From Marinibacterium anthonyi (GTDB taxonomy: Bacteria > Pseudomonadota > Alphaproteobacteria > Rhodobacterales > Rhodobacteraceae): DNA of 64,000 bases. Position 1 is the stretch's first letter, and each line of letters opens with the position of its first letter. The notes under the pieces are model-generated. The model was not told the origin of the DNA. It did no database searches and was given only the letters and a program-made list of their open reading frames with translations. Of the stretch, positions 25,733-51,039 are shown one piece after another. The stretch spans positions 4,513,501 through 4,577,500 of the forward strand of contig CP031585.1 in NCBI GenBank assembly GCA_003217735.2, in the 5' to 3' direction. Position numbers and translations under genes: made by a program.

Positions 25733-25797
25733 GATGGGTGCCGCAGCACCCATCCTACGCGAACCGTTCGGGTAAGATGGGTGCTATTGCACCCATC
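25733..25797. repeat. REPIN-like inverted doublet between rpoA and rplQ
   Basis: Stem 1: GATGGGTGC (25733-25741) with GCACCCATC (25746-25754), followed by CTACG. Stem 2: GATGGGTGC (25776-25784) with GCACCCATC (25789-25797), preceded by GTAA. The two copies face each other. It lies eight bases downstream of the rpoA stop. Confidence 0.8.
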
Positions 25798-25805
25798 CGC
25801 CGAAA

Positions 25806-26822
25806 TCAGAACGCGTCTTCGTATTTCTTGGCGAGATCTTCGATGTTGTCGGGCGGCCAGTCCTCGACATCCATGCCAAGGTGCAGGCCCATGCCGGACA
25901 GCACTTCCTTGATCTCGTTCAGCGACTTGCGGCCGAAGTTCGGGGTGCGCAGCATCTCGGCTTCGGTCTTCTGAATCAGGTCGCCGATATAGACGATGTT
26001 GTCGTTCTTCAGACAGTTGGCCGACCGCACCGACAGTTCCAGCTCGTCCACCTTCTTGAGAAGCAGCGGGTTGAACTCCAGCCCGTCGTCCTCGTCCTGG
26101 CGGCCAGCCGATTCCGGCTCTTCGAAGTTCACGAAGATCGACAGCTGGTCCTGCAGGATCCGCGCGGCGAATGCCACGGCGTCATCCGGCGAGATCGAGC
26201 CATCGGTTTCGACCTTCATCGTCAGCTTGTCATAGTCCAGCACCTGGCCCTCGCGGGTGGGCTGCACGTCATAGCTGACCTTCTTGACCGGCGAATAGAT
26301 CGCATCGATCGGAATCAGCCCGATCGGCGCGTCTTCCGGTTTGTTCTTGTCGGCCGATACATAGCCCTTGCCGGTGTTCACCGTCAGTTCCATGTACAGG
26401 TCGGCGCCATCGTCCAGGTGGCAGACGACATGCTCGGGGTTCAGAACCTCGATGCCCGCGCTTTCGGAAATCTGACCGGCGGTGACGACCATCGGCCCCT
26501 TGGCCGAGATCGACAGGCGCTTGGGCCCTTCGACGTCCATGCGCAGGGCGACGCCCTTGAGGTTCAGGATGATATCGGTCACATCTTCGCGCACGCCGGC
26601 AACGGACGAGAATTCGTGCAGAACGTTGTCGATCTGCACGGATGTGATGGCGGCACCTTGCAGCGACGACATGAGGATACGGCGAAGCGCGTTGCCCAGT
26701 GTCAGACCGAAGCCGCGTTCCAGCGGTTCGGCGACAACAGTGGCGCGGCGCGCGGGATCGTTGCCCGGCTTGACGTCAAGCTGCGTTGGCTTGATCAGTT
26801 CAGCCCAGTTCTTATGGATCAT
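25806..26822 (-). CDS. rpoA: DNA-directed RNA polymerase subunit alpha
   Basis: 338 residues. The N-terminal dimerisation domain contains [25 protein letters not shown]; the C-terminal domain contains [23 protein letters not shown] and [17 protein letters not shown], which bind UP elements and activators. Length matches other alphaproteobacteria. It lies between rpsK and rplQ as usual. Confidence 0.98.
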
Positions 26823-26892
26823 GCAGTCCCTCCATGCTTGCCCGCCTGCCTGACCCGAATGGCGAGCGTCCCGAGGTTTACGAATGACGAGG

Positions 26893-26916
26893 GGGGCCGA
26901 GCGTCAGCCCGGCCCC
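26893..26916 (-). other. Intercistronic hairpin between rpsK and rpoA
   Basis: GGGGCCG (26893-26899) pairs with CGGCCCC (26910-26916) around ten bases in the 112-base rpsK-rpoA gap. No T-run follows, so mRNA processing or stabilisation is likelier than termination. Confidence 0.4.
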
Positions 26917-26934
26917 AACCTGAAAAATACGTGA

Positions 26935-27324
26935 TCAGACGCGGCGGCGCTTCGGCGGGCGGCAGCCGTTGTGTGCGATCGGCGTCACGTCGCGGATCGA
27001 CGTGATGTTGAAGCCCACTGCGGCCAGGGCGCGCAGAGCCGATTCACGGCCCGAACCGGGGCCCTGGACTTCGACTTCCAGCGTCTTGACGCCGTGTTCC
27101 TGTGCCTTCTTGCCCGCGTCTTCAGCGGCCATCTGAGCGGCATAGGGGGTCGATTTCCGCGAGCCCTTGAAGCCCATGGTGCCGGCGGACGACCACGAAA
27201 TGGCGTTGCCCTGCACGTCCGAGATAAGGATCTTGGTGTTGTTGAACGACGAGTTCACATGCGCCACACCTGCGGCGATGTTCTTGGAAACCTTACGCTT
27301 TGCGCGGGTTTTATCGCGTGCCAT
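26935..27324 (-). CDS. rpsK: 30S ribosomal protein S11
   Basis: 129 residues. [40 protein letters not shown] and [15 protein letters not shown] are characteristic of S11, which lines the mRNA exit platform. It starts 14 bases after rpsM. Confidence 0.98.
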
Positions 27325-27338
27325 TGTTCAGCCTCCCC

Positions 27339-27707
27339 TTACTTCTTCTTGCCGGCGATGGGCTTAGCGGGGCCCTTGCGCGTGCGTGCGTTGGTATGGG
27401 TGCGCTGACCGCGAACCGGCAGGTTGCGGCGGTGGCGCAGGCCACGGTAGCAGCCAAGGTCCATCAGGCGCTTGATGTTCATCTGCGTTTCACGACGCAG
27501 GTCGCCTTCGACGGTGTAGTTGGCGTCGATGTGTTCGCGGATCTGCAGGACTTCGGCGTCCGACAGTTCGTTCACACGGCGGGCCGGATCGATACCCACG
27601 GCTTCGCAGATCGCTTTGGCCGAGGTGTTGCCGATTCCGGTGATGTAGGTGAGGGCGATAGGTACCCGCTTTGCAGTCGGGATATTGACGCCGGCAATAC
27701 GTGCCAC
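27339..27707 (-). CDS. rpsM: 30S ribosomal protein S13
   Basis: 122 residues from a GTG start at 27707 ([20 protein letters not shown]). An upstream in-frame ATG would add 21 unrelated residues and is rejected; AAAGGAC sits before the [21 protein letters not shown] is the conserved tail. S13 contacts the P-site tRNA and helix 38 of the large subunit. First gene of the alpha operon; rpsD is absent from this cluster. Confidence 0.96.
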
Positions 27708-48529: not shown

Positions 48530-49260
48530 TCTTCACCCCCTTCGGCGGGCGCCTCTGCTGCCGGCGCTTCAGCGGCCGGAGCTGCACTTGCCTTGATGGC
48601 GGCCGGATGCGGCACACCGTCGGGCAGTTTCTTCTTCACGGCATCCTTGATGGTGACCCAGCCGCCCTTGGCGCCCGGAACAGCCCCCTTGATCATGATC
48701 AGACCGCGTTCGACATCGGTCTTCACGACTTCCAGGTTCTGCGTGGTCACACGGGCTGCACCCATGTGGCCGGCCATCTTCTTGCCCTTGAACACCTTGC
48801 CGGGGTCCTGACACTGACCGGTCGAACCATGCGACCGGTGCGAGATCGAGACACCGTGCGACGCGCGCAGGCCGCCGAAGTTGTGCCGCTTCATGGCACC
48901 GGCGAAACCCTTACCGATCGAGGTGCCCGAGACGTCCACTTTCTGGCCTTCCAGGAAGTGTTCGGCCGAGATTTCGGCACCCACGTCGATCAGGTTGTCC
49001 GCGGTGACACGGAACTCCACCAGCTTGCGCTTGGGTTCGACCTTCGAGGCGGCGAAATGACCGCGCATGGCCTTCGAGACCCGCTTGATCTTGGGCGAAC
49101 CCGCGCCAAGCTGAACGGCGGTGTAGCCGTCCTTTTCAGCAGTCCGCTGAGCCACGACCTGAAGGGCGTCCAGTTGCAGGACGGTGACGGGCACTTGCTT
49201 CCCGCTGTCAAGAAACAGCCGGGTCATGCCCACTTTCTTTGCGATAATACCAGAGCGCAT
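48526..49260 (-). CDS. rplC: 50S ribosomal protein L3 with acidic tail
   Basis: 244 residues, about 35 longer than E. coli L3. [20 protein letters not shown] and [20 protein letters not shown] with [16 protein letters not shown] are the core. The C-terminal extension is Ala/Pro/Glu-rich ([19 protein letters not shown]). Confidence 0.97.
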
Positions 49261-49277
49261 ATGACTACTCCCTGATC

Positions 49278-49598
49278 TTACGACTGCAGCTTGATCTCGA
49301 CGTCCACGCCAGCGGCGAGGTCGAGCTTCATAAGCGCGTCAACGGTTTGCGGGGTCGGGTCCACGATGTCCAGCAGCCGCTTGTGCGTGCGGATCTCGAA
49401 CTGGTCGCGCGACTTCTTGTCGATGTGCGGGCCACGCAGAACGGTGAACTTCTCGATCTTGTTCGGCAGCGGGATCGGCCCGCGAACCTGTGCGCCGGTC
49501 CGCTTTGCGGTGTTCACGATCTCCTGGGTGCTGGCGTCCAGCACGCGGTAGTCGAACGCTTTCAACCGGATCCGGATGTTCTGGCTTTGAATTGCCAT
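49278..49598 (-). CDS. rpsJ: 30S ribosomal protein S10
   Basis: 106 residues: [39 protein letters not shown] and [24 protein letters not shown] split over its second half. S10 also partners NusB in antitermination. It follows tuf after 189 bases containing a hairpin. Confidence 0.98.
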
Positions 49599-49718
49599 GT
49601 CGCATTCCCCTTAAGTAGGGCGTTGCAGTTGAGAGGTGGCACGGGGGTCATTCCCCGCCCACATCGAACCATTTGTTGTTGGGGGCCGGTCCCGCAGGCT
49701 ACGGACCCCGAAAACTTT

Positions 49719-49742
49719 GACGCGCGGGGTGAACCGCGCGTC
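49719..49742 (-). terminator. Attenuator-like hairpin between tuf and rpsJ
   Basis: GACGCGCGG (49719-49727) pairs with CCGCGCGTC (49734-49742), six-base loop; on the minus strand AAAGTTTTC follows. It could reduce read-through from the abundant tuf message into the S10 segment. Confidence 0.55.
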
Positions 49743-49787
49743 AGAAACACTTGGCGAACGGGCGTTACCGCCCGCCCTGCTCCCGGA

Positions 49788-50963
49788 TCACTCGATGATC
49801 TTGGAGACGACGCCGGCACCCACGGTGCGGCCACCTTCGCGGATGGCAAAGCGCAGGCCCTGCTCCATCGCGATCGGCGCGATCAGTTCAACACCGAACG
49901 ACACGTTGTCGCCGGGCATCACCATCTCGGTGCCTTCGGCCAGCGTCACGGTGCCGGTCACGTCCGTGGTCCGGAAGTAGAACTGCGGACGGTAGTTCGC
50001 GAAGAACGGCGTGTGACGGCCGCCCTCTTCCTTGGTCAGGATGTAGGCCTCGGCTTCGAACTTGGTGTGCGGCTTGACCGAACCCGGCTTGCAGAGAACC
50101 TGGCCACGCTCGACCTTGTCACGTTCAATACCGCGCAGCAGGGCGCCGATGTTGTCGCCGGCTTCGCCGCGATCCAGCAGCTTGCGGAACATTTCCACAC
50201 CGGTGCAGGTGGTTTTCTGGGTGTCCTTGATGCCGACGATTTCCAGTTCGTCACCAACGTTCACCACGCCACGTTCCACACGGCCGGTCACAACCGTGCC
50301 ACGGCCCGAGATCGAGAACACGTCTTCGATCGGCATCAGGAAGGGCTGATCCACGGCACGCTCGGGGGTGTCGATGTATTCGTCGACGGCCGCCAGCAGT
50401 TCCTTGATCTTCTCTTCGCCGATTTCCGGGTCACGGCCTTCCAGCGCGGCCAGGGCCGAACCTGCGATGATCGGAATATCGTCGCCCGGGTAGTCGTAGG
50501 ACGACAGCAGTTCGCGGACTTCCATCTCCACGAGCTCCAGCAGTTCCTCGTCATCGACCTGGTCGACCTTGTTCAGGAACACGACCATCTTCGGGATGCC
50601 GACCTGGCGGCCCAGCAGGATGTGTTCGCGGGTCTGGGGCATCGGGCCGTCGGCGGCGTTCACCACCAGGATCGCGCCGTCCATCTGCGCCGCGCCGGTG
50701 ATCATGTTCTTCACATAGTCGGCGTGGCCGGGGCAGTCGACGTGCGCGTAGTGGCGCGCGTCGGTCTCGTATTCCACGTGCGCCGTCGAGATCGTGATCC
50801 CGCGCGCTTTCTCTTCCGGTGCGCCGTCGATCTGGTCGTAGGCCTTGAAGTCGCCGAAATACTTCGTGATCGCAGCCGTCAGCGTCGTCTTGCCGTGGTC
50901 AACGTGGCCGATCGTGCCGATGTTAACGTGCGGTTTGTTACGCTCAAACTTTGCCTTTGCCAT
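49788..50963 (-). CDS. tuf: Elongation factor Tu
   Basis: 391 residues. The G domain has [23 protein letters not shown] and [12 protein letters not shown]; domains 2 and 3 show [17 protein letters not shown] and [13 protein letters not shown]. It delivers aminoacyl-tRNA. It lies 83 bases from fusA across a repeat doublet. Only one copy is in this window. Confidence 0.99.
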
Positions 50964-50986
50964 GATGGCCTCCTGTCATTCGGGTC

Positions 50987-51039
50987 GGCGGGGTGAACCC
51001 CGCCCTACAAGTGATGGGTAGGGCGGGGTAAACCCCGCC
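50987..51039. repeat. REPIN-like inverted doublet between fusA and tuf
   Basis: Stem 1: GGCGGGGT (50987-50994) with ACCCCGCC (50997-51004), followed by CTAC. Stem 2, preceded by GTAG: GGCGGGGT (51022-51029) with ACCCCGCC (51032-51039). The two halves are inverted copies. It occupies nearly all of the 83-base gap. Confidence 0.9.

Follow-up and report, generated by a model that had tools for sequence, protein, structure and literature searches.

What are the short palindromes that stand between the ribosomal genes of an alphaproteobacterium, and why does one of them recur at the same junction in many relatives, each time with the same architecture and often with other letters? The question is raised by a 64,000-nucleotide stretch (C1:4513501-4577500, hereafter the window) of the Rhodobacteraceae-type genome of Marinibacterium anthonyi, 6.81 Mb in 13 contigs; Pfam and Rfam matches identify the window as the str-S10-spc-alpha ribosomal region of an alphaproteobacterium. 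The first-pass annotation had placed palindromes in six intergenic gaps, and their coordinates and stems were confirmed: all six gaps carry a GTAG tag with an adjoining hairpin, and in four of them the elements form inverted doublets. By tag, hairpin ranges, and placement, these elements belong with the GTAG-type repetitive extragenic palindromes (REPs) described by Di Nocera et al. (2013), in both single and tail-to-tail (TT) dimer form. The doublet between fusA, encoding EF-G, and tuf, encoding EF-Tu, is the central subject here, and we are somewhat inclined to regard it as a REP-derived intercistronic twin hairpin that is kept for its fold while its stems are rewritten by arm-to-arm copying.

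The fusA-tuf doublet of the window occupies positions 50987..51039 on the reverse strand, with fusA (51047..53170, reverse strand) upstream and tuf (49788..50963, reverse strand) downstream, both identified by Pfam. It begins 7 nt past the fusA stop codon and consists of two halves (50987-51008 and 51018-51039) that both carry the stem GGCGGGGT and an intact tag, the tags facing each other across a linker that reads CCATCACTT on the transcript strand. When the fusA-tuf gap was extracted from 68 loci and a doublet was defined as CTAC-N(4-14)-GTAG flanked by hairpins, 25 loci spread over the family contained one, with stems including GGCGGGG, GGTGGGG, GGTGGGC, GGTGGGT, GGTGCGT, and others; the structure counts exclude the 43 gaps that lack this core, among them one of 234 nt.

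Despite this variety of letters, the arms pair at seven of seven positions (G.U counted as paired) in 48 of 50 hairpins, namely 25/25 left and 23/25 right, as opposed to means of 6.14 and 5.89 paired positions for the left and right hairpins when rows were permuted; the observed values were never reached in 2,000 permutations. On the alignment, the twin-hairpin fold pairs 94.3% of the cells (86.9% in shuffled alignments), an alternative long fold across the two halves remaining below it at 89.7%, and 30 cells have changed on both sides of a pair compared with 10.4 in shuffles. The covariation score of the twin fold is 0.189, against 0.074 for shuffled alignments and at most 0.064 when the fold was slid along the alignment. 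Covariation at the fusA-tuf site is therefore beyond that of shuffles and slides, as is asked of a conserved structured RNA, with the relatedness of the rows retained in all these shuffle and permutation tests. The two halves of one doublet differ from each other by 0.88 on average and halves from different rows by 1.55, a difference matched in none of 5,000 trials. The earlier proposal of duplication or conversion within sites, or of compensatory change, is borne out by both the likeness of the halves and the double changes. Because a doublet at the same spot recurs across genera with different letters that nearly always match themselves, these data suggest that it is the folded shape that has been kept.

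The linker and the pairing between the halves provide further indications. The fusA-tuf linker is rich in C and A and free of G in 23 of 25 rows, and the seven other distinct TT linkers found, four of them from the own genome, all contain G. One variable pair across the halves reads on the transcript strand as G-C in 9 rows, G.U in 8, A-U in 8, and A.C in none of the 25 (relatedness ignored), a pattern that may be taken as a hint, from sequence, for a role at the RNA level rather than at the DNA level.

Some hosts contain this doublet and little else of the kind. The two stem patterns searched match nowhere outside the gap in 6 of 22 genomes (G027, G047, G049, G053, G073, and G090), and only once elsewhere in two further genomes (G037 and G112), the number of other matches per host ranging from 0 to 185. 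Doublet gaps are 0.68-0.72 identical across fusA identities of 0.74-0.90, and gaps without a doublet 0.50-0.57. Between the window and the sister genome G001, differences in the gap are confined to the loops, the linker, and the upper portion of hairpin 2, the last of which has changed and yet still pairs; one template-switch event (mechanism in PMC8794818) would explain this difference simply. Among the 43 loci that lack the core, eight (L133, L145, L149, L179, L189, L230, L237, and L249) give weaker matches to the doublet model at the gap and have the look of doublets that have decayed or been altered. When 240 genomes across the class were searched with the model, 4 gave a match: scores above 80 bits were confined to the own genome and a second member of its family, and those in two other families reached at most 35.4 bits; absence elsewhere is weakly supported, as at most 18 candidates per genome were scored. 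The model, of which the window row is a part, also matches other sites of the own genome more weakly (best, 39.2 bits).

How such a doublet would operate can be sketched as follows. Hairpins that begin 2-11 nt past a stop codon lie within the footprint of the terminating ribosome. An unpaired GTAG tag with a hairpin of 7-9 bp, alone or tail to tail, set a few nucleotides past a stop codon, would fold in the mRNA as soon as the ribosome has terminated and left. A special and old case of this arrangement would be the fusA-tuf doublet, a twin hairpin with a mostly G-free linker whose fold is kept. We infer that it most likely acts on the transcript, in the release or reloading of ribosomes at the fusA stop codon; it could also limit the run-on of ribosomes from fusA, and it would protect the mRNA or direct its cleavage or processing, thereby helping to set EF-Tu output relative to that of EF-G. 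The stem letters would turn over with little loss of pairing, most simply through copying of one arm onto the other by template switching at hairpins and copying of one half onto the other half; occasionally, the whole gap would be exchanged. In Escherichia coli, translation is reported to be lowered by REPs that lie fewer than 16 nt away from the stop codon (PMC12306157); the placement here is the same, 44 of 47 ribosomal cases lying 2-11 nt after the stop, and by this likeness the fusA-tuf doublet may affect expression in a similar way. A stronger version of the proposal, in which a selfish-type repeat has turned into a fixed translation-control element of the fusA-tuf junction in a single bacterial family, with fold and position under selection, stems rewritten in concert by template switching, the gap swapped between species as a cassette, and an inner helix that can pair only as RNA (a two-state RNA), is put forward tentatively, and we consider it rather doubtful as a whole; exchange of the cassette between species is pointed to by one sister pair.

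Several observations weigh against retention of the doublet for its fold, or reduce what the evidence for it can carry. Stem mismatches do not clearly favor G.U on the transcript (4 versus 2, with 13 of other kinds), the helix-1 scores are lowered because three GTGCG rows are misaligned in A1, and the invariance of the tags is uninformative because rows were chosen by CTAC...GTAG. The counts of genomes with no match elsewhere cover two stem patterns only. Folding energies are also less distinctive than might be hoped: z is below -2 in 21 of 25 doublet gaps, but also in 21 of 42 gaps without a doublet and 43 of 50 tuf-rpsJ gaps (1/2 for rpsL-rpsG and 0/14 for rpsG-fusA), and stability alone is therefore no mark of a REP. 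Presence of the doublet on the tree requires 16 changes (shuffled mean, 20.4; 17 of 500 shuffles as low), 13 of which are forced by starred branches, and this patchiness, with 25 of 68 loci positive, makes repeated gain or swapping likely beside descent. Finally, loci L138 and L172 are 97% identical over the last 900 nt of fusA and 94% over the first 900 nt of tuf, the first 120 nt of tuf being identical, although one has the doublet, the other lacks it, and their gaps are unrelated. The element is therefore non-essential, and replacement of whole gaps seems to happen. Hairpins without GTAG are also common at the fusA-tuf junction, which is compatible with a requirement for a hairpin at this place, one that a REP could supply. 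As a separate observation on the region, the tuf-rpsJ gaps of the family loci commonly hold stable hairpins, as the above count indicates.

The placement of the elements after ribosomal genes is similarly regular in relatives. At ribosomal loci, the median distance from the stop codon is 6 nt, and the hairpin precedes the tag in 42 cases versus 5. Counting elements up to 60 nt past the gene end, 26 of 70 loci have one at fusA, 10 of 122 at rplW, 7 of 104 at rplP, 3 of 39 at rplR, and 1 of 82 at tuf, and the 1,214 ends of nineteen other genes have none; the low counts at tuf and at the nineteen other genes are partly due to the shortness of many gaps. These counts use positions 38,001-54,600 of the window, a range that leaves out its rpoA and rplR elements, and they include some genomes twice, in the denominators as well; L128 and L195 come from one genome and L129 and L177 from another, and the ten rplW cases thus represent eight distinct genomes. 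At the rplP site, the window and L098, L103, L125, L158, G005, and G022 have the element in the same orientation with different stems.

The other five elements of the window comply with this pattern to various degrees, all being on the reverse strand. The TT doublet at 25733..25797, with GATGGGTGC stems, lies 8 nt past the rpoA stop codon and before the L17 gene (Pfam), and of its halves (25733-25758 and 25776-25797), one carries the tag GTAG and the other GTAA. That at 32271..32328, with GGTGCGCAT stems, lies 6 nt past the stop of rplR (L18) and upstream of rpsE (Pfam), and both tags of its halves (32271-32294 and 32305-32328) are intact. A single element at 40350..40374 (GGTGCGCCG) consists of a hairpin followed by CTAC, 2 nt past the rplP stop. 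The element at 47585..47611, 7 nt past the rplW stop, is one hairpin with a tag at each end and contains GATGGGTG, the stem that is also found in the doublet at 43134..43191 (halves 43134-43154 and 43168-43191; one tag GTAG, the other GCAA). This last doublet is located upstream of the L2-Alphaproteobacteria leader (43040-43125, Rfam) and after a terminator-like hairpin at 43249-43223; the remaining five elements, after rpoA, rplR, rplP, rplW, and fusA, all lie 2-8 nt from a stop codon. Like the Rfam ribosomal protein leaders, such as RF03142 in the window, the elements would be structured RNAs in ribosomal operons of Alphaproteobacteria; unlike those leaders, none of the six reaches the cut-off of any Rfam family. 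The cuckoo RNAs of Rhodobacter were considered for comparison as well.

These six are a fraction of a larger population. The stem-family pattern has 56 matches in the own genome and none when the pattern is reversed, and a looser pattern has 65 versus 18. The earlier description of one multi-copy palindromic family with a fixed outer tag, variable stems, and inverted doublets holds. In 80 named S10-operon loci, GTAG is followed by a stem of at least 7 bp starting with G in 34 of 3,112 cases; for a pool of seven other 4-mers, the figure is 46 of 75,861. A generic scan for 8-bp stems over 864 kb of the own genome (the window and 40 stretches) yielded weak enrichment, 44 of 2,321 (1.9%) for GTAG against 0.3-1.5% for thirteen other 4-mers, and the signal accordingly resides in the stem families. 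On the main contig (contig 1), 61 hairpins were counted at 52 sites: 43 single, 5 TT (the tags facing inward), 4 with one hairpin between two tags, and none head-to-head (HH); the single class includes doublets with one altered or degenerate tag, such as two in the window. For this count, 2 of 63 matches were set aside for lacking a perfect 7-bp stem, and an overlapping second match at 4071267 and one match on contig 10 were not entered. Sites cluster at the window, with 6 in 26 kb (as dense in 5 of 20,000 random draws) and 11 in the surrounding 90 kb (0 of 20,000). Using as likely genes open reading frames of at least 60 codons picked by codon GC, and the 51 of 52 sites with sequence, 43 of 51 sites are found no more than 100 nt past the stop codon of such a gene, 24 of them within 15 nt; of those within 30 nt, 22 have the hairpin first, with the tag away from the gene, versus 7 in the other orientation, and 4 are tagged on both sides. 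No shared function of the neighboring genes emerged in the 30 of 43 scanned by Pfam, which included an amidase, a nitrogenase component, GatB, ETF, NusG, and others. Near the center of L004 (G000:C1:1455443), a short run of tandem ATCCTAC repeats comes after the element, which suggests slippage at the foot of the hairpin.

Across the own genome, a small set of stems is used again at many sites, and heterodimers occur. The earlier description of stems as shared within a doublet but not between sites is thus too strict, and a single stem per site was rejected as the mark of site-specific families. The family as a whole ranges from 0 to 178 matches per genome, with at least one match in 71 of 149 genomes, and the dominant stem differs among species. 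These features compare well with those of the GTAG-tagged REPs, of which 24 families, including the SMAG elements of Stenotrophomonas, are described in the main text of Di Nocera et al. (2013; PMC3733652): a terminal GTAG beside a hairpin within the ranges of 5-13 bp (stem) and 2-20 nt (loop), several stem families per genome, monomers and dimers including TT, and multiple copies that are mainly intergenic and mostly 3' of open reading frames. As REPs mostly lie 3' of open reading frames (PMC3733652), the location in ribosomal operons, which the first-pass annotation found unusual, is not odd in kind, while the clustering of 6 sites in 26 kb is significant. The differences from that paper's systems are that the own genome yielded no transposase and that a single site is occupied in several genera by stems that turn over; none of eight genus or group names for this lineage appears in the paper's main text.

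Could the elements be REPINs (REP doublets forming hairpins) mobilized by a REP-associated tyrosine transposase (RAYT), as was initially proposed? They share with the REPINs of Bertels and Rainey (2011; PMC3116915) two close inverted REPs predicted to form hairpins. The GTAG tag with a hairpin and copy numbers that vary widely among species also speak for this reading, and the sister genome G001 has 4 HH doublets beside 4 TT doublets by our own count from the match list. However, REPIN-type doublets are HH dimers, with tags outside (PMC3733652, citing its reference 26, taken as Bertels and Rainey), and all five fully tagged doublets of the own genome are TT. A doublet that is the replicating unit would be over-represented and better conserved than singlets; 43 of the 52 sites are counted as single, a class that includes doublets with one degenerate tag. 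The fusA-tuf doublet is found in some hosts without other copies. No RAYT, which accompanies GTAG-type REPs frequently but is not required, was found in the genus, the Y1 transposase family PF01797 (Y1_Tnp) giving no match in its three genomes, the own included. Across the family, PF01797 matches occur in 15 of 149 genomes without tracking copy number (4 of 32 genomes with at least ten matches versus 11 of 117 others, p = 0.74), and at ten loci among the 41 listed matches in the 15 genomes, no GTAG hairpins flank Y1_Tnp within stretches of 1.7-3.4 kb, from which more distant ones would escape. The REPIN/RAYT reading was accordingly rejected for this genome, and we consider it very improbable in general. 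Since copies range from 0 to 178 and dominant stems differ between species, it appears that the repeats are spreading, or did so in the past, with no evident partner of the Y1 type. Genomes G020, G123, and G022, with 178, 124, and 92 matches and no PF01797 match at E <= 0.001, would be suited to a search for a mobilizer.

Ordinary REPs, mobile at present or formerly, offer another explanation, in which gene ends are insertion hot spots that have been hit independently and the architecture derives from the mechanism of insertion, not from retention. Patchy presence at fusA-tuf, different stems at one site, the occurrence of the same stem kinds in many copies in some hosts (43 in G084, 45 in G137, and 178 in G020), and the sister pair L138/L172 with and without a doublet would all be expected from it. 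It accounts poorly for the six genomes without another match of the two patterns, for the G-free linkers of fusA-tuf doublets as opposed to the linkers of other TT doublets, and for the fact that neither the window nor G001 has its genome's dominant stem in this doublet; moreover, L138 has lost the gap sequence that is typical of its relatives instead of having it interrupted, and no Y1 transposase was found in the genus. We therefore view independent insertion as unlikely, although it deserves to be kept in mind. Less probable still is that the elements are terminators or attenuators lacking a T tract, or protein-binding sites at the DNA level resembling bacterial interspersed mosaic elements (BIMEs), in spite of the GC-rich hairpins at gene ends and of the rplW element, which directly precedes a terminator-like hairpin with a T run (47544..47560, reverse strand). 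Intrinsic terminators, sought as a GC stem plus a T run, were discarded as candidates, since no terminator-like site overlaps any of the six elements (the scan as a whole, with 9 sites versus 8.1, was not above shuffles), and three elements stand between adjacent ribosomal genes (fusA-tuf, rplR-rpsE, and rpoA-L17). A role at the DNA level would also not predict the lack of A.C in the cross-half pair on the transcript. The earlier remark that the insertions come without a transcription stop needs correction at rplW, where the hairpin 47560-47544 follows. A twin hairpin of REP origin, kept at the fusA-tuf junction for its fold, remains the explanation that we prefer.

Regarding the surroundings, Pfam names RpoA, L17, L18, L6, S5, L16, L22, S19, L2, L23, L4, L3, S10, S7, EF-Tu, and EF-G in the window. 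About 4.5 kb of other sequence (43126-47584) splits the S10 operon between rplW and rplB, and the rplW-rplB spacing in relatives ranges from approximately 0.1 to 5.5 kb. By comparison of L4, the nearest named loci are those of Salinihabitans, Ruegeria, and their kin, and the loci of that set used for the tree are from Roseobacteraceae or Paracoccaceae, except for L096. This locus, filed as Nocardioides marinus, has a roseobacter-type S10 operon and is probably mislabeled or contaminated.

We regard the fusA-tuf doublet, conserved in position and variable in letters, as the new part of this work, as no paper on it, or on Rhodobacteraceae REPs and the fusA-tuf gap in general, was found in a literature search to which subscription texts were mostly closed. 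The customary view of REPs is that of mobile debris or loose regulators. If the stronger version of the proposal is true, the fusA-tuf junction would be a case in which site and shape are conserved and sequence is not. It constitutes a natural experiment, in which one junction has one architecture but many stems and the hosts differ in their number of other matches (0 to 185), which allows testing of the domestication of a REP in an essential operon and of how stems keep pairing while their letters change. In addition, this site bears on whether GTAG repeats can spread without a Y1 transposase.

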